Of a stretch of DNA of 41,433 nt, positions 25,251 to 33,741 are shown piece by piece. Origin of the DNA: Actinomycetota bacterium. Lineage in GTDB: Bacteria > Actinomycetota > Acidimicrobiia > Spongiisociales > UBA11373. The translations under genes and the position numbers were made by a program. The notes beneath the pieces are model-generated. The model was not told where the DNA came from, searched no databases, and worked only from the letters and a program-made list of their open reading frames with translations. The stretch covers positions 1 to 41,433 of the forward strand of contig JAHJML010000164.1 in assembly GCA_018821365.1 (NCBI GenBank). The letters run 5' to 3'. Within the stretch, counting starts at the first letter, position 1, and each line of letters starts with the position of its first letter.

Positions 25251-25433
25251 TCAGTGATCGTCCTCGGGAGCACCCTCCCAGACCAGGTCCATCCGGTGGT
25301 GGCAATCCTCGCAGGCGAAGGCGATGACATCACCCGGTTGGAAACCCTCATCGGGTGGGGCATAGGACATGCGGTGGGCGGTGCCTCCGCATTCGACGCA
25401 GGTGATCGTGTCGGGGACCTCGGACGGGTTCAT
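25251..25433 (-). CDS. Small zinc-ribbon protein
   Basis: A 60-residue protein with two CxxC knuckles, CVECGG and CEDCHH, about 30 residues apart, which should bind one zinc. The ATG overlaps the histidine-kinase stop (ATGA), so expression is tied to the two-component system. Small zinc ribbons may bind nucleic acid or protein partners; nothing shows which here. Confidence 0.7.
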   Translation of the reverse strand: MNPSEVPDTITCVECGGTAHRMSYAPPDEGFQPGDVIAFACEDCHHRMDLVWEGAPEDDH

Positions 25434-26791
25434 GGCGACACCTCCACGAGTGGCACCTCGAAGCCTACGGACGTGCCGCCTCCCTCGCGGGGCATTGCCC
25501 AGACACTGCCCCCGTGTTCTAGGGCGATCTGCTCGACGATGGCCAACCCGAGGCCGGACCCCGGCATGGTCCTGGCGGCATCGGCCCGGTAGAAGCGGTC
25601 GAAGACCCGGGCCAGGTCGGCCGACGGGATGCCGGGGCCGCGGTCGCGGACCTCGATGCGGCCCGCCTCGAGCACCACGTCGATCGGCTCGTCCGGGGGA
25701 CTCCACTTGGTGGCGTTGTCGAGCAAGTTGGCGACGGCTCTGGCGATCCGGGCGGGCCGTACCTCGGCCGTCCCGCCGGTCCCGCTCACCTCGATGGTGC
25801 GTCCGGTGCGGCGGGCGGCCCTGGCGGCGGCCGCCCGCACGATCTCGCCGAGATCGGATGCGATGGGCGGTTGACCGGCGGCCTCGCTACCGCCCGCCAG
25901 TTCGACCACCTCGGACACCAGATTCGACAACTGCTCGATCTCGTAGGAGACGTCGGCCATCAGTTCGGCTCGCACCCCGGCCTCCATGTCCGGGTTGCGG
26001 GCCAGCACATCGAGGTTGGTGCGCAGACTGGTCAGCGGGGTCCGCAACTCGTGGCCGGCGTCGTCGACGAGGCTGCGCTGCTGGCGGCGGGAGATCGCCA
26101 GGGCCGCCAGCATCCCGTTGAAGGCACCGGCGAGGCGCCCGACTTCGTCGTTGCCGGCCTCGGGAATGGGGGCGTCCAGGTGGCCGGTCTGGGCGACATG
26201 CTCGGCCGCATCGGTGAGGCGGCCGACCGGGGCCAGCGCCCGCCCCGCCACAAACCAGGCGCCCACCGCGGCCAGCATCACGCCCCCGGCGCCCATCAGC
26301 AAGAGGCGCAGCCGCAGCGATGCCAGCAGGCGGTCGGTCTCGGTCAGGTCCCTGGCGGTCTGCACCACCATCCCTGCGGGGCCGGGGGTGGTGATCATCC
26401 GGTAGTGGGTTCCCTCCACGGTCACGTCCTGGACCGTTGCGTCGCCTGCCAGGGCGGAGGCGATCGTCTCCGCTTCGACCGGCAGCGCCGCTTCCCCGAA
26501 GAGCGGGATCACCGTCCCGTCGGCCGCCACCACATGCACGATCGTGTCGTAGCGGGCAAACCCGCCGAACGGCCCCTGTTCGCCGGGTTCGGTGGGGATC
26601 TCGCTCGGGTCGAAGGGAACGCCGTCCCGATCCCCGATGCGGTCGGCGAAGCGGGCGCGCTCCTGGAGGAAGGCGTCGATGTATGCCCTCGCCTCGCCGG
26701 CGGTGGATGCGTAGGAGAACCACGAGACCGCCGCCACCGCCACGGCCACCACGAGGGCGATGAACACGGTCAGCCGCAACCGGAGGGTCAC
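25430..26791 (-). CDS. Sensor histidine kinase, MprB-like
   Basis: A 453-residue kinase: membrane segment 1 (about 8-28), an extracytoplasmic sensor of about 135 residues, membrane segment 2 (about 160-183), HAMP linker (about 184-235), HisKA with [17 protein letters not shown] (phospho-His247) and an HATPase domain with N box [11 protein letters not shown]1 box RDRGPGIP and G2 box [11 protein letters not shown]. The [13 protein letters not shown] stretch is close to MprB, the actinobacterial envelope-stress sensor. The GTG start overlaps the regulator stop by 4 bp. The sensor domain has no recognisable ligand fold. Confidence 0.9.
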
Positions 26792-27480
26792 GAGGCGCGC
26801 ACCACGTAGCCGACACCGCGGACGGTGTGGATCAGTCGGGGCTCGCCTCCGGCTTCGGTCTTGCGGCGGAGGTACCCGATGTAGACGTCGAGGGGATTCG
26901 AAGTGGTCTCGAAGTCGTACCCCCAGATTCGCTCGTAGAGGACCTCCCTCGCCAGCACGATGCCGGCGTTGAGCATCAGCAGTTCGAGGAGATCGAACTC
27001 CGTCTTGGTCAGGTCGACGGTTCGGGTGCCTCGCCTCACGATGCGAGCCGCCGGGTCGAGGGAGAGGTCGGCGACCGAGAGCACCCCGGCGGCCTCCGAC
27101 GGCCCGCCGCGGCGCAGCAGCGCCCGCAGCCTCGCCAGCAGTTCCTCGAGGGCGAACGGCTTGACCAGGTAGTCGTCGGCCCCGGCATCGAGGCCGGCCA
27201 CCCGGTCGGCCAGTTCGTGGCGGGCCGTCAGCATCAGGATCGGAGTGCGGTCCCCGGAAGCCCGCAGGCGCCGGCAGACGGTCAGGCCGTCGGTGCCGGG
27301 CATCATCAGGTCGAGGACGATGGCATCGGGGGGGTCGGTGGTTGCCGAGGTCAGGGCGGTGATCCCGTCCTCGGCGAGGGTCACGTCGAAGCCCTCGAGG
27401 CGGAGGGCGCGTTCGACGGAGCGACGGACCTGCTCGTCGTCCTCGGCGACCAGGACCCTGGGCGTGGGTTCGGGGGGCAT
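26788..27480 (-). CDS. OmpR-family response regulator, MprA-like
   Basis: A 230-residue regulator with a receiver domain ([14 protein letters not shown] acidic pocket, phospho-acceptor Asp57 in [12 protein letters not shown], Thr in MLTARHE and YLVKPF with the conserved Lys) and a winged-helix DNA-binding domain (about 130-230, [39 protein letters not shown]). The start is the ATG at 27480. In the 114 bp divergent gap upstream lie four 11 bp-phased TGAGA repeats, so autoregulation is likely. Confidence 0.93.
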
Positions 27481-27504
27481 CCCGGCGAGCGTACCGGCGG
27501 GGGA

Positions 27505-27547
27505 TGAGAGAGGTGTGAGAGGCCGATGAGAAGGCGGTGAGACGGAT
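27505..27547. promoter_or_regulatory. Four 11 bp-phased TGAGA/TCTCA repeats, predicted regulator site
   Basis: TGAGA occurs at 27505, 27516, 27527 and 27538, exactly one helical turn apart, with a shared unit close to RTGAGANGGCG. Read on the minus strand each is TCTCA. OmpR-family regulators bind such head-to-tail repeats. The last repeat overlaps the -35 position of a likely promoter whose -10, CATACT (27564-27569), drives the lipoprotein gene at 27595. The site is also immediately upstream of the regulator gene itself. Confidence 0.75.
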
Positions 27548-27594
27548 TGGGCCCGGACTGCTGCATACTGGTCGCAGAAAGGGATGGTGGAGAG

Positions 27595-28215
27595 ATGAGG
27601 CGATCGGCGGCCGCCGTGATGGCTCTGATGGCACTGGCCGGCACCGGGTGCGGATCGGGATCTGATGGCGACGGCCTGGCGACGCTCGAGAACACTCCTT
27701 CGACATCCGCCCCCTCCGGAGCCGATGTAGAACTCGCCGCCGAGGAGGCGGTCCTGGCGCTCACAGAATGCCTGCGGGAGAACGGGGTGGATCTCCCAGA
27801 TCCTGAGTTCGACGACCAGGGCAACCTCCGACTCCGCTCGCTGATGGACCTGGGGGAGTCCGCCGACCGGATCGATCCCGCCGATCTGGAGGCCGGTTTC
27901 GAGGCTTGCTCGCATCACCTCGACGGGGTGGCGCAGATCGTCGCCGGCATCGATCGAACCGCCATCGAGGACCGCCTCTACGACTTCGCCGCCTGCATGC
28001 GCGAGCAGGGGTACGACATGCCCGACCCCGATTTCGGCGCCATGTCGCCGGGCATGGGTCCCGGCGGGGGCGAGGCGGCGTCCATGGGACCGTTCGGGGA
28101 GATCGACGCCGAGGACCCGGCGTTCCTGGCGGCCAGCGAGGCCTGCATGTGGGTCTTCGGTGAGACCATCGGGCCCGGAGGGTTCGGACCCGCTACCGAA
28201 ACTGGCGGCGGTTGA
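27595..28215 (+). CDS. Lipoprotein with paired Cys-Gly-PDP motifs (first copy)
   Basis: A 206-residue lipoprotein (lipobox AGTGC, Cys19). The mature part has two similar halves: [17 protein letters not shown] followed by a Cys at FEACSHH, and [17 protein letters not shown] followed by SEACMWVF. Each half thus has a Cys-x-R-x2-G-x-D-x-PDP signature and a later Cys, probably forming a disulfide. A Gly/Met-rich stretch ([13 protein letters not shown]) separates the last pair. It is paralogous to the next gene. I know no function; the position beside a MacAB-like exporter suggests an accessory or sensing role. ATG chosen for GGATGGTGGAG upstream. Confidence 0.72.
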
Positions 28216-28222
28216 GCGCCGG

Positions 28223-28282
28223 CGGGTTCTCAGGGGTTTCTCATGGCGAGTTCACGGGACCTTCATGGGGCAGGCAGATACT
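28223..28282 (+). promoter_or_regulatory. Second 11 bp-phased TCTCA repeat set and -10 box
   Basis: TCTCA at 28228 and 28239, then weaker GTTCA at 28250 and CTTCA at 28261, continue an exact 11 bp period. GATACT (28277-28282) is a plausible -10; the promoter at 27564 shares the ATACTG core. The set lies within the 95 bp between the two lipoprotein genes, so the second gene and the exporter operon have their own promoter, apparently under the same regulator. Confidence 0.72.
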
Positions 28283-28310: not shown

Positions 28311-28979
28311 ATGTACAAGCGCTTCGGCAGCCTGGTGGTGCTGTTGGCGATGACCGCAGCGGCCTGCGGGTCGGAGGCCTCAGATGTCGGTCTGGCCTCC
28401 CTCGATGGCTCGACTGGTTCCGACGTGGGGGCGGCCTCTCTCGACGGCTCCGACGGGAACGCCGCCACCGACGACACGGTCGCCGCGATGGACAGCGAAG
28501 AGGCGATGCTGGCCTTTACCCAGTGCCTCCGCGACCAGGGCCTCGATGTCGCCGACCCCGAATTGGGTGAGGACGGCCAGATGAGGCTCGGCGGACTCTT
28601 CCGGCCCTCCGACGAGAACTCCTTCGATCGCGAGGCGATCGAAGCAGCCATGGATGCCTGCTCCGAGTACCGCGACCTGATCACCACCGGCTTCGGCGAG
28701 GTCGATCGGACGGCGATGGAGGATCAGATCTACGAGTACGCCGCCTGCATGCGGGAGAACGGCTACGAGATGGCCGATCCCGACTTCAGCGACACCGGTG
28801 CCGGAGGCGAGGGGGAGGGAGGGCAACGGATGGGGCCCTTCGGGGACATCGACCGTTCCGACCCTGCCTTCCAGGCCGCCAACGAGGTCTGCCAGGACCT
28901 GTTCGGGGGATTCGGTCCCGGAGGAGGTCTTCCGGGCGGTGGGCTCGGCGGAGGCATCCCTCCCGGCGACGGCGCATAG
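28311..28979 (+). CDS. Lipoprotein with paired Cys-Gly-PDP motifs (second copy)
   Basis: A 222-residue lipoprotein (lipobox TAAAC, Cys19) with a linker containing a repeated VGxASLDGS unit. Two halves match those of the neighbour at 27595: FTQCLRDQGLDVADPEL with MDACSEY, and YAACMRENGYEMADPDF with NEVCQDLF; here the PDP reads ADP. The shared MGPFGDIDRSDPAF block is nearly the same as in its paralogue. The C terminus is Gly/Pro-rich (FGPGGGLPGGG). GAAAGGA lies about 10 bases before the ATG. It is followed 15 bp later by the adaptor gene, so it is the first gene of the exporter operon. Confidence 0.72.
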   Translation: MYKRFGSLVVLLAMTAAACGSEASDVGLASLDGSTGSDVGAASLDGSDGNAATDDTVAAMDSEEAMLAFTQCLRDQGLDVADPELGEDGQMRLGGLFRPSDENSFDREAIEAAMDACSEYRDLITTGFGEVDRTAMEDQIYEYAACMRENGYEMADPDFSDTGAGGEGEGGQRMGPFGDIDRSDPAFQAANEVCQDLFGGFGPGGGLPGGGLGGGIPPGDGA

Positions 28980-28994
28980 GAGATCGACGAAGAG

Positions 28995-30548
28995 ATGGAA
29001 GACATGACCCGTACCGGCAAGAACGAGAACGACGCCACAGCGACGGCCACCCGGCACCCGATCCGCCGTCATCTGAAGTGGATCATCCCGGTGGTGGTGG
29101 CCGGCGCCCTCGGGGCGGCCTGGGCACTGCTGCCGTCCAACGGTGGCGACGACGAGGCGGCCGCCACGGCCGCGTCCCTCGACCTCGAGGAGGTGGTCAT
29201 CACCGACCTGGCCGAGGTGACCACCTTCAGCGGCACCCTTGGATTCGCCGAAGGCGACCCGATCACCTCCGGAGTGGCCGGGACGCTGACGGCGGCAGCC
29301 TCCGAGGGAGCGGTGATCTCCGAGGGCGACATCCTGTTCACGATCGACGACGAACCGGTGCCCCTGCTGCTGGGGGACACCACGGTCTGGCGCGACATGG
29401 GGTACCTCCCCGAGTTGGAGGCGTTGGCGCCTCGCATCTCGGGCACGGTCACCTGGATAGCAGAGGAGGGCGCGACGCTGCAGCAGGGCGACATCCTGAT
29501 GAAGGTCGACGACCAACCCGTCGTCGTGCTCTATGGGGACATCCCCGCCTACCGGTCGCTGCAACGCGGCGGCGAGGGCATCGATGTCCGGCAACTCCAG
29601 GACGCCCTCCACGCCCTGGGGTACGACCCCGATGGTGACATGGAAGCCGATGGGGAGTTCACCTGGATCACCCAGGCCTACGTCGAGGACTGGCAGGCGG
29701 ACGTCGGCGCCTCCGACGACGGCCGGGTCGGCCTGGGCGAGATCGTCTTCGTCGCCGGGCCCTTCACCATCGAGAGCCTCGACGTGGAGGTCGGCTCCCA
29801 GGTCGGCGGTTCCGCGGTCGCCGACATCTCCTTCGCCTCCGAGGCCACCGAGGGCGGCGACGTCCTCGCCCTCGAGCAGGCGCTGGTGCGCCTCGGCTTC
29901 GACGACGACGGCGCCATGACCGTCGACGGGGTGTTCGACGAGCAGACCAGGGCGGCTGTGATCGCCTGGCAGGCGTCGATCGGCGCCGACGACGATGGCG
30001 TGGTCTCGCCCGGCGAGGTGGTGTTCCTGCCGCAGTCGGTGAGGATCTCGGATCGGCTCGCCGACCCGGGGGCGACGGTCAACCCCGGCACCTCGATCCT
30101 GGCGACGTCCTCCTACGAGAGCGTGGTGACGGTGGACCTCCCCGCCTCGGACCAGGCGGCCCTCGAAGAGGGCGACCGGGTGGTCATCGTGCTGCCCGAC
30201 AACACCGAGGTGAGCGGGATGGTGTCGTACAAGGCGGAGACCGCCACGCTCAGCAGCCAGGGAGGAGCCACCTTCGACGTGATCGTCGTGCTCGACGACC
30301 TGGCGGCCGCCGAGGGACTCGATCAGGCGCCCGTCGATGTCGACGTGGTCACCGACCGCGCCGACGGCGTCATGGCGGTGCCGGTGACGGCACTGGTGGC
30401 GCTGGCCGAGGGTGGCTACGCCGTCGAGGTGGAGCAGGCCGATGGGTCGACCCGCCTGGTCGCCGTCGACCCCGGCATGTACGCCGACGGCCTCGTCGAG
30501 GTCACCTCCGACGGCCTGCAGGCGGGCGATCGGGTGGTGGCGCCGTGA
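28995..30548 (+). CDS. HlyD/MacA-like adaptor with two peptidoglycan-binding modules
   Basis: A 517-residue protein with one N-terminal membrane segment (about 28-46). Lipoyl/barrel-sandwich halves (SGVAGTLTAAASEGAVISEG, APRISGTVTWIAEEGATLQQ) are interrupted by peptidoglycan-binding modules: one near 195-245 (GIDVRQLQDALHALGYDPDG) and one near 285-345 (DVLALEQALVRLGFDDDG, TRAAVIAWQ). A beta-barrel and membrane-proximal part completes the adaptor fold (MAVPVTALVALAEGGYAVEV). In a cell with one membrane, such adaptors may link the ABC exporter to the wall. The stop overlaps the ATPase start (GTGA). A second ATG 9 bases on is an alternative start. Confidence 0.85.
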   Translation: MEDMTRTGKNENDATATATRHPIRRHLKWIIPVVVAGALGAAWALLPSNGGDDEAAATAASLDLEEVVITDLAEVTTFSGTLGFAEGDPITSGVAGTLTAAASEGAVISEGDILFTIDDEPVPLLLGDTTVWRDMGYLPELEALAPRISGTVTWIAEEGATLQQGDILMKVDDQPVVVLYGDIPAYRSLQRGGEGIDVRQLQDALHALGYDPDGDMEADGEFTWITQAYVEDWQADVGASDDGRVGLGEIVFVAGPFTIESLDVEVGSQVGGSAVADISFASEATEGGDVLALEQALVRLGFDDDGAMTVDGVFDEQTRAAVIAWQASIGADDDGVVSPGEVVFLPQSVRISDRLADPGATVNPGTSILATSSYESVVTVDLPASDQAALEEGDRVVIVLPDNTEVSGMVSYKAETATLSSQGGATFDVIVVLDDLAAAEGLDQAPVDVDVVTDRADGVMAVPVTALVALAEGGYAVEVEQADGSTRLVAVDPGMYADGLVEVTSDGLQAGDRVVAP

Positions 30549-31243
30549 CCGGCGACGTCGTCCTCGACCTGAGAGGCGTAGTCAAGGAGTACCCCGGCAC
30601 GCCCCCGGTCCGGGCCCTCGCCGGAGTCGACCTCCGGATCCGCTCCGGGGAACTGGTCGGCGTGGTCGGGCCATCGGGGTCGGGCAAGAGCACCCTTCTG
30701 CACGTGATGGGGACCCTCGACCGGCCCACCGCCGGATCGGTCCACGTGGCCGGCTACGACATCGGCGAGTTGTCGGATCGGGACCTCTCGGCGGTGCGGG
30801 CCCGCAACATCGGGTTCGTCTTCCAGCAGTTCCATCTCCTCGACGGCTACACGGCCCTCGACAACGTCGCCGACGGCCTGCTCTACACCGGCATGTCGGC
30901 GGTGGAGCGCCGTCAACTGGCAGGTGAGACCCTGGTGCGGGTCGGTCTCGGCCACCGGATCACCCAGGAGACCAACAAACTGTCGGGCGGCGAACGGCAG
31001 AGGGTGGCGGTGGCCAGGGCGGTGCTGGGGCGCCCGGCCATCGTGCTGGCAGACGAACCGACCGGCAACCTGGACAGCGCCTCGAGCGATGCCATCGTGG
31101 AGTTGCTCGAGGAACTCAACGGCGAGGGGATCACCCTGGTGGTGATCACCCACAACCGCGAGATCGCCGACCGCTTCCCCCGTCAGGTGTCCCTGCGGGA
31201 CGGCTCGATCGAGACCGACTCGGCCCTGGCCGGGGTGGCGTGA
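30545..31243 (+). CDS. ABC transporter ATP-binding protein, MacB/LolD type
   Basis: A 232-residue ATPase: Walker A GPSGSGKST (42-50), Q-loop FVFQQFHLLDGYTALDN, signature LSGGERQRVAVARA, Walker B IVLADEPTGNLDS and switch His in VVITHNREIA. The GNLDS and LLDGYTALDN features are typical of the MacB/LolD/FtsE group, which uses ATP to drive mechanical work on the outer face rather than moving substrate through the membrane. The GTG start overlaps the adaptor stop, and its own stop overlaps the permease start. Confidence 0.93.
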   Translation: MTGDVVLDLRGVVKEYPGTPPVRALAGVDLRIRSGELVGVVGPSGSGKSTLLHVMGTLDRPTAGSVHVAGYDIGELSDRDLSAVRARNIGFVFQQFHLLDGYTALDNVADGLLYTGMSAVERRQLAGETLVRVGLGHRITQETNKLSGGERQRVAVARAVLGRPAIVLADEPTGNLDSASSDAIVELLEELNGEGITLVVITHNREIADRFPRQVSLRDGSIETDSALAGVA

Positions 31244-32448
31244 TGGCCAAGAGGAACGGCATCGAACCGAGCCGCCTCCACGCCGGGGACGTCTTGCGCA
31301 CCGCCACGGTCGGGTTGCGGACCCGCAAGATGCGGGCGGCCCTCTCGGCGCTCGGCATCACCATCGGCATCGCCTCGCTGGTGGCGGTGCTCGGCCTGTC
31401 GGATTCCAGCCGATCCGAGTTGCTGTCCCAGTTGGACCGGCTCGGGACCAACCTGCTGGTGGTGCAGGCCGGCACCGGCATCGGCCTCGGCAACGCCGAG
31501 TTGCCCGACACCGCCGCCGTCATGGTGGAGCGGATCGGTCCGGTGGAGGAGGTCTCGGCAGTCGGGTCGGTCGACGCCAACGTGTATCGGAGTGATCTGG
31601 TCCCCTCCACCCGCAGCGGGGGCATCTCGGTGAGCGCGGTGGATGTCAACCTGCTGAACACCCTGGAGGGCACCATCGCCTCGGGCCGCTTCCTCGACGA
31701 GGCGTCGGCCGCCTTCCCAACCGTGGTGCTGGGGTCGATCGCCGCCGCGCGACTCGGCATCGCCGATGTCGATAGCCGGCAACTGGTGTGGCTCGGCGAC
31801 CGTTGGTTCGCCGTGATCGGGGTCCTCGACCCCCTGGAACTGGCCGGCTCGCTCGACCGCAGCGCCATCGTCGGGACGGTGGCGGCCGAGGAGTACCTGG
31901 ATTACGACGGGGTGGCCTCCAGCCTCTACGTGCGTACCGACCCCGAATGGGTCGACGGCGTGATGAACGTGCTGCCGGCGACCGTCAACCCGGAGAACCC
32001 CGACCAGGTGGAGGTGAGCCGCCCCACCGACGCCCTCGAGGCGCGGGCGGCCGCCGAGAGCGCCTTCACCGCTCTGTTCCTGGGCCTGGGCGTGGTCGCC
32101 CTGGTGGTGGGCGGGGTCGGCATCGCCAACGTGATGGTGATCTCGGTGCTGGAACGGCGGTCCGAGATCGGCCTCCGCCGGGCGCTGGGGGCCACCCGGC
32201 GCCACGTCGCCATGCAGTTCCTCCTCGAAGCGCTGATGCTGGCGCTGGCGGGAGGCATCGGCGGGGTGCTGCTCGGCGCCGGGGTGACCGCCATCTACTC
32301 CCGGCTCAGGGGGTGGGATGTGCTGATCCCCACCATCGCGGTCACCGGCGGGGTGGTGGCCGCCCTGGTGATCGGCGCCGTCGCCGGCCTCTACCCGGCG
32401 ATGCGGGCCAGCAGGCTGTCACCCACCGAGGCGCTGCACACCACCTGA
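31243..32448 (+). CDS. ABC transporter permease, MacB/FtsX type
   Basis: A 401-residue permease: one membrane segment near 30-50 (SALGITIGIASLVAVLGL), a large extracytoplasmic domain of about 210 residues, then three segments (LFLGLGVVALVVGGVGIANV, MLALAGGIGGVLLGAG and VVAALVIGAVAGLYPAMRAS), the standard four-TM type VII layout. RRSEIGLRRALGATRRHV is the conserved coupling region and the end, ASRLSPTEALHTT, is typical. ATG at 31243 gives a TGATG overlap with the ATPase; a GTG three bases earlier is possible. Exported molecule unknown; peptides, macrolides or lipoproteins are handled by relatives. Confidence 0.9.
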   Translation: MAKRNGIEPSRLHAGDVLRTATVGLRTRKMRAALSALGITIGIASLVAVLGLSDSSRSELLSQLDRLGTNLLVVQAGTGIGLGNAELPDTAAVMVERIGPVEEVSAVGSVDANVYRSDLVPSTRSGGISVSAVDVNLLNTLEGTIASGRFLDEASAAFPTVVLGSIAAARLGIADVDSRQLVWLGDRWFAVIGVLDPLELAGSLDRSAIVGTVAAEEYLDYDGVASSLYVRTDPEWVDGVMNVLPATVNPENPDQVEVSRPTDALEARAAAESAFTALFLGLGVVALVVGGVGIANVMVISVLERRSEIGLRRALGATRRHVAMQFLLEALMLALAGGIGGVLLGAGVTAIYSRLRGWDVLIPTIAVTGGVVAALVIGAVAGLYPAMRASRLSPTEALHTT

Positions 32449-32478: not shown

Positions 32479-33741
32479 CTATCCGGCGACCCTCCGGTCG
32501 TAGAGGTCGGTACCGCGGGTCGTATAGTCGCGCCAGTCCTCCCAGACCACCAGGTACTCGTCGGCGGTCGTATTGGCGGCGACCGCCGGGAAGCCCCGGT
32601 AGTCGACAACGTTGCGGGGACTGATCAGGAAGTCCCGTTCGGTGAAGGCCCCGGTGACCGGCACCCGGCGTCCGTAGATGTCGTCGCGGCCGGTGGAGGT
32701 GAACGTCCGGTTGTCGTTCCAGACCACCAGGAACCGGCCGGCGGTCTGGTCCCAGGCCACCGCCGCCCCATATGCGTCATGGGCCGCCGCCGGACGCCGG
32801 ATGTTCAGGTCCTTGACCGCGTGAGCGAGATCCGATCGAACTCGCTGTCCGAAGATGTCGTAGTCGTCGGAACCTGAGGCGCTGCCGTGCCACACGACGA
32901 GGCACTTGTTGACGGAACGGGCACAATCCACATCCGGCGACAAGGCCTCTTCCGCCGAGGGTGAACTGATCTGGACCTGCCCACCCGCCAGTGCCCCACT
33001 GGCTTTCACCTGCTGGCCGAGGATGGCCCTGTAGTTCCAGAGAGCCCATACGACGATGAACTTGTTCGTTGTTGCGGCATAGGCGACGGCCGGTGCCTCC
33101 TCGCTCCGGGTATCGCTGCTGATCTGGAAATCGGTTCCGAGGAGCATGCCGTCGGATCGCACCCGGTGGCCGTAGATGTCATCCCCGCTGTCCGCCCAGT
33201 TCCGAGAGTCCGACCACACGACCAGGTACTGGGTCGAAGCGGTGTTGTAGGCGACATCGGCCGCCTCGGTGTGGGAGCCGGGGGTGCTGATCCGGAACGG
33301 CTTACCGAGGAGCGCCCCATCCGCGGCGATCCGCCTTCCCCAGGTGTCGTAGAAGTAGGTGTACACACCCTGGACCTTGTACTCCCACCACACCACCAGG
33401 TACTCGTTGGCCGATGCGTTCCACGCCACGGCAGGGTCGCCCTCGCTAAGGGTGTCGGCAGGGCCGCTGATGCGGAATTCGCGCCCGATCGGCTTGCCGT
33501 CGGCCCCCACCCGCCGGCCATAGATGTCGTAGCCCCGGGTGCCCAGGTTGCGATTGTCCTGCCACACCACCAGGTACTGGTTGGCGGTTCCGTTCCACGC
33601 CACCGCCGGGGCGTACTCCCAGTCGGTGGCCGATGGACTGCTGACGCGGGATCCGCCCAGCGTCGTGGCGGCTCCCGCCATCGTCGCGGTGGCCACCAGG
33701 GCGACCACCACCCCGAGACCGACCAACACCCTGGGTCGCAT
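32479..33741 (-). CDS. Secreted seven-repeat, beta-propeller-like protein
   Basis: A 420-residue protein with a signal peptide ending near TMAGA and AGGAG eight bases before the ATG. The rest is seven repeats of about 55 residues with the pattern PAVAWN...YLVVWxDxR...DIYGRRV..DG...G..F.IS. Copies 1, 2, 3, 6 and 7 are clear and 4 and 5 more diverged. Seven four-strand units suggest a closed seven-bladed propeller. There is no catalytic motif or anchor, so it is probably released or wall-bound and binds a ligand. It converges on the exporter operon with a 30 bp gap and no clear terminator. Confidence 0.72.
   Translation of the reverse strand: MRPRVLVGLGVVVALVATATMAGAATTLGGSRVSSPSATDWEYAPAVAWNGTANQYLVVWQDNRNLGTRGYDIYGRRVGADGKPIGREFRISGPADTLSEGDPAVAWNASANEYLVVWWEYKVQGVYTYFYDTWGRRIAADGALLGKPFRISTPGSHTEAADVAYNTASTQYLVVWSDSRNWADSGDDIYGHRVRSDGMLLGTDFQISSDTRSEEAPAVAYAATTNKFIVVWALWNYRAILGQQVKASGALAGGQVQISSPSAEEALSPDVDCARSVNKCLVVWHGSASGSDDYDIFGQRVRSDLAHAVKDLNIRRPAAAHDAYGAAVAWDQTAGRFLVVWNDNRTFTSTGRDDIYGRRVPVTGAFTERDFLISPRNVVDYRGFPAVAANTTADEYLVVWEDWRDYTTRGTDLYDRRVAG

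Follow-up and report, generated by a model that had tools for sequence, protein, structure and literature searches.

Phased TTCTCA arrays as predicted operators of an MprA-type regulator at an actinobacterial lipoprotein-exporter locus

We found two arrays of four TTCTCA-like units, spaced at 11 bp, at a divergent locus in the genome of an uncultured actinobacterium. Comparison across relatives indicates that they are very probably operators of the adjacent MprA-type response regulator, which would thereby activate its own operon and control the operon of lipoprotein 2 and a MacB-like exporter. The arrays, their phasing and orientation, the -10 offset, the lack of a -35 element, conservation and regulator orthology were all read from sequence; from these we predict binding and infer phosphorylation dependence, activation and the stress signal.

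The divergent locus and its two arrays

The window, meaning the whole 41,433-nucleotide stretch analysed here, belongs to a 2.9 Mb genome in 318 contigs. The kinase and regulator genes lie on the minus strand, divergent from lipoprotein 1, lipoprotein 2, adaptor, ATPase and permease genes on the plus strand.

25430-26791, minus strand: sensor histidine kinase (HAMP, HisKA and HATPase in Pfam)
26788-27480, minus strand: OmpR/PhoB-family response regulator, assigned as MprA-type (Response_reg and Trans_reg_C; reciprocal best hit)
27488-27493, minus strand: predicted -10 TACGCT for the regulator gene, beginning 17 nt downstream of where the last array 1 unit starts
27503-27543, minus strand: array 1, four 11-bp-phased units GTCTCAC/TTCTCAT/CTCTCAC/CTCTCAT, pointing to the regulator gene
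27564-27569, plus strand: CATACT, possible -10 of lipoprotein 1, with no upstream array in matching orientation
27595-28215, plus strand: lipoprotein 1, no family match
28227-28266, plus strand: array 2, TTCTCAG/TTCTCAT/AGTTCAC/CCTTCAT, pointing to the lipoprotein 2 and exporter operon
28277-28282, plus strand: predicted -10 GATACT for lipoprotein 2 and the exporter operon, beginning 17 nt downstream of where the last array 2 unit starts
28311-28979, plus strand: lipoprotein 2, paralogue of lipoprotein 1
28995-30548, plus strand: HlyD-type membrane-fusion adaptor with PG_binding_1 (peptidoglycan-binding) domains (Pfam)
30545-31243, plus strand: LolD/MacB-like ABC ATPase
31240-32448, plus strand: FtsX/MacB_PCD permease

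The GTG start of the kinase gene overlaps the regulator stop codon. The regulator carries the PF00072 receiver and the PF00486 winged-helix (Trans_reg_C) domain, both above cut-off, and scores below the curated PhoB cut-off. Neither lipoprotein matched a family in Pfam or NCBIfam, and a PDB fold search with the predicted, partly helical structure of lipoprotein 2 (pLDDT 68) gave no usable match. The tandem pair of paralogous lipoproteins is conserved order-wide, with repeated C[LM]R..G....DP motifs and invariant cysteines. The peptidoglycan-binding domains of the adaptor may anchor the exporter to the cell wall. Convergent with the exporter operon, at 32482-33741 on the minus strand, lies a gene for a protein with repeated 'WN..ANQYLVVW.D.RN' segments and no Pfam match.

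On re-reading the sequence, the repeats reported by an earlier sequence-only reading were exact, with TGAGA at 27505, 27516, 27527 and 27538, and TCTCA, TCTCA, GTTCA and CTTCA at 28228, 28239, 28250 and 28261. That reading had placed an ATACTG -10 core after both arrays; the cores are present on the plus strand at 27565 and 28278, but the -10 belonging to array 1 is TACGCT on the minus strand. Its pairing of array 1 with the ATACTG core ahead of lipoprotein 1 was rejected, as the array reads TCTCA on the minus strand, toward the regulator gene. The final 7-bp core, ending 10 bp short of the -10, occupies the position expected for a -35 element. In most genomes no more than 6-10 nt separate the regulator start codon from its -10 (27480-27493 in the window, and the orthologous promoters elsewhere), so the regulator transcript probably has no leader, or almost none, with its 5' end at or beside the ATG.

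Within the window, four-fold YTCA repeats occurred twice at a step of 11 (arrays 1 and 2) and at none of the other steps from 7 to 21, and none arose in 200 dinucleotide shuffles of the window. A genome-wide scan for four units plus NANNNT returned arrays 1 and 2 as the only sites with zero mismatches; the next-best unrelated sites had three mismatches, the level of reversed-pattern controls. The same pattern search in this genome brought up no further regulon members above control beyond the two arrays, and no array at its two HtrA-type genes.

Conservation in related genomes

We drew orthologous loci from 59 relatives and scored them with a unit matrix built from the window's eight units alone, calling an array at a score of at least 20. 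In the other genomes of families f1, f4 and f5, 36 of 38 promoters of regulator, lipoprotein or exporter genes had an array. Of 20,000 background windows, 52 passed the threshold, and some of them are probably real sites too. With step 11 the median best score was 27.2, whereas steps 8-10 and 12-14 gave 5.8 at most. The 11 bp phasing that the earlier reading suggested looking for in orthologous loci is borne out in these three families. The repeats are real and, because their layout is conserved in distant relatives, very likely functional.

The spacing to the -10 is similarly constrained. NANNNT stood at offset 17 in 35 of the 40 scored promoters, window included, and at any other offset from 8 to 31 in at most 3 of 40; these counts ignore the kinship of the genomes. 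Matches to TTGACA at the usual -35 spacing were no better in the scored promoters than in shuffled sequence. Offset 17 recurred at 17 of 20 distal sites of the same genomes, located by an order-wide array pattern (relatedness again ignored in the count), and the order-wide scan gave about 110 array hits against 8 hits for the reversed-pattern control.

G003, G004, G012 and the f4 genomes have the regulator and exporter genes at separate loci, each with an array at its promoter. The recognition helix of the regulator is conserved order-wide. The array signal is weaker in families f2, f6 and f8, and the f8 regulators lack an array; in family f7 the regulator is present and its own promoter has none. 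In the distant family f42, the regulator carries an array with a TACCGT -10. Co-presence of regulator and exporter across the 59 genomes is weakly associated (Fisher p = 0.09, phylogeny ignored).

These comparisons lend weight to several predictions of the sequence-only reading. The conserved 11-bp repeats back OmpR/PhoB-type sites one helical turn apart, the arrays at the regulator promoters of relatives support self-control by the kinase and regulator, and array 2 together with its conserved counterparts supports control of the lipoprotein 2-exporter operon.

Regulator identity, predicted mechanism and rival readings

The regulator appears to be MprA-type because it is the reciprocal best hit (61%) of the response regulator (RR) that a mycobacterium-like genome encodes in an RR-HK-HtrA operon; the second-best matches in this test were 43% in its own genome and 56% in the mycobacterium-like genome. 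We take the RR of that operon to be MprA on the basis of gene order. The kinase shares 49% identity over 262 aa with the kinase of the same operon, and its sensor region is not alignable. Five RR promoters of the mycobacterium-like family carry two TCTCAG units at a step of 11 bp, with NANNNT at offset 17 in all five. An operator of TCTCA-type direct repeats at the own promoter is a feature of the MprAB system, and an MprA box is published for M. tuberculosis; the literature searched here yielded neither a TCTCA motif nor that box. MprA of C. glutamicum binds its own promoter in positive autoregulation, and its published motif is TKTTAAGAAM (PMC12113857), which differs from TCTCA and counts against the MprA-type reading. 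MprA homologues autoactivate their own operon (PMC12113857, PMC8561658).

The system resembles MprAB (MprA-MprB-PepD), the envelope-stress two-component system of mycobacteria and corynebacteria with control over sigE, in its regulator, in its TCTCA-type units at 11 bp with offset 17, in its predicted autoregulation, and in having HtrA-type proteases among the predicted targets in relatives of the window genome. It differs in having four units rather than two, in its sensor region, and in its target here, a lipoprotein-adaptor-ABC exporter operon. We also found no HtrA match, and hence no pepD/HtrA gene beside the kinase, among the annotated neighbours scanned; the genome's two HtrA-type genes, at which the pattern search gave no array, sit on other contigs.

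In the proposed mechanism, the kinase would sense envelope stress and phosphorylate the regulator, whose molecules would align head-to-tail on the TTCTCA(C/T/G) units, one per helical turn. Since the last unit sits where a -35 would be, the bound regulator would recruit RNA polymerase to a promoter without one. Array 1 would in this way drive the regulator-kinase operon, giving positive autoregulation from a near-leaderless mRNA, and array 2 would drive lipoprotein 2 with the peptidoglycan-binding adaptor and MacB-like ABC exporter. The layout is like the class II Pho box, in which direct repeats of a 7-bp core and a 4-bp spacer take the place of the -35, with 10 bp between core and -10; there is no -35 in PhoB promoters, where PhoB recruits sigma domain 4 (PMC4496699), and the E. 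coli pho box substitutes for the -35 (PMC4971064). Unlike the Pho box, the core here is TTCTCA(C/T) and not CTGTCAT, there are four units, and the regulator falls under the curated PhoB cut-off. The 11-bp register is shared with M. tuberculosis PhoP operators (TCACAGC-N4-TCACAGC), whose core differs from TTCTCA. PhoP forms tandem oligomers on 7-bp motifs separated by 4-bp spacers and binds more tightly where three or four motifs are present (PMC4832192).

Two sets of related genomes bear on which protein reads the arrays. In the sister genome G001, a single deletion with collinear flanks (L033:4500-4750 versus window 25471-27560) has taken out array 1, the regulator gene and the greater part of the kinase gene, while the lipoproteins and exporter are retained. 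Array 2 there keeps three clear units, with the fourth degraded and the -10 changed from GATACT to GAGGCT. In this single case array 1 was lost together with the regulator and array 2 partly eroded, which is compatible with relaxed constraint; the three units kept without the regulator suggest either recent decay or another regulator reading array 2. In two genomes of family f3 (G015 and G029; loci L041 and L044), the exporter locus has a different upstream regulator (43-44%), with the helix VVDTYISYLRRK or VVETYISYLRKK. Repeats at the regulator and lipoprotein promoters alike are there of the TTCACAG/TCCCAG type, at step 11, and TTCACAG includes most of the M. tuberculosis PhoP core TCACAGC. 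The two genomes thus show an apparent swap to a PhoP-like regulator and its operators, and the change of motif along with the regulator supports the pairing of regulator and site.

Against this background we weighed four other readings. That the arrays are chance repeats, or simple repeats made by slippage, has practically no probability: nothing but the short unit speaks for it, and it is ruled out by the shuffles, by the absence of any other period, and by conservation, the arrays being kept in sequence-diverged genomes with a fixed -10 spacing. Somewhat less remote, though still very unlikely, is that the arrays are repression operators, where the bound regulator would stop RNA polymerase at an otherwise constitutive promoter. 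An array overlapping the -35 region is a possible repressor position, but the region has no -35 likeness above shuffled sequence, the exact 17-nt distance from array to -10 follows a known PhoB activator layout, and autoactivation by MprA homologues (PMC12113857, PMC8561658) also argues the other way. Activation is likelier than repression because the geometry matches PhoB-type promoters, down to the 10 bp between last core and -10. The arrays might instead be bound by another OmpR-family paralogue (PhoP-, RegX3- or MtrA-like), the neighbouring regulator being just a target. Six other response-regulator hits in the genome, the partial survival of array 2 in G001, and the two f3 genomes that run the exporter locus with a different regulator and repeats would all fit. 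We nevertheless consider this reading unlikely, since almost every f1, f4 and f5 genome has a TCTCA array at the promoter of the regulator gene itself, whatever the gene's location, TCTCA boxes also mark the reciprocal-best-hit regulator in mycobacterium-like genomes, and the motif changes when the regulator is swapped in f3.

A better-placed alternative, possible though on balance doubtful, holds that array 1 acts as a common operator in both directions, serving lipoprotein 1 as well. The array sits some 33-73 bp ahead of the expected start of lipoprotein 1, in a stretch with no evident -35, and could influence the gene from behind. However, the array is in the wrong orientation; a search for a forward four-unit array before lipoprotein 1 found none, with a best forward score of -9.4; and relatives that share the divergent arrangement (L034, L035 and L039) have two intergenic arrays, one per direction, the second, forward one being kept for the lipoprotein. 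On the strength of orientation and this two-array layout we rejected array 1 as the partner of the lipoprotein 1 -10. The earlier claim of control over lipoprotein 1 is not supported as it was put, since the gene has no array of its own in this genome; judged from sequence, the forward array has either been lost in the window or was never there.

Wider regulon and significance

Reading the arrays as operators of the MprA-type regulator, we find candidate targets beyond the locus in related genomes. Genes behind other arrays encode HtrA proteases, secreted proteins (DUF2680-like or similar), lipoproteins, the exporter and others. Arrays precede trypsin/HtrA-like proteases in G037 and in G044, in the latter downstream of the kinase. 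At L162:6423, L179:1133, L183:1141, L300, L302, L311 and L314, the gene behind the array codes for a small secreted protein bearing an ITQ.QAD-like motif; one such protein matches DUF2680, and these genes often lie immediately downstream of the kinase gene. The ITQ.QAD-type secreted proteins are likely core members of the regulon. The closed circuit proposed by the sequence-only reading is supported for the regulator and kinase and for the lipoprotein 2-exporter operon; it is not unique to this locus, being the local form of a wider MprA-type regulon.

A more general proposal, tentative but with nearly as much for it as against it, is a phylum-wide MprA-type promoter code of two to four TTCTCA units at 11 bp, with a -10 at 17 nt after the last unit start and no -35. 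In this order, a core envelope-stress target of the code would be the export module made up of lipoprotein, peptidoglycan-binding adaptor and MacB-like exporter, and in f3 the regulator would have been replaced by a PhoP-like one and the operators rewritten. The export module is undescribed so far; the regulatory layout itself is of a known kind. The unit, step and exact -10 distance amount to a searchable rule by which MprA-type regulons may be read from the genomes of uncultured actinobacteria, and they connect the lipoprotein-exporter operon, itself uncharacterised, with what is probably an envelope-stress regulator. The apparent exchange of regulator and operators in f3 would offer a natural case for the evolution of response-regulator specificity.
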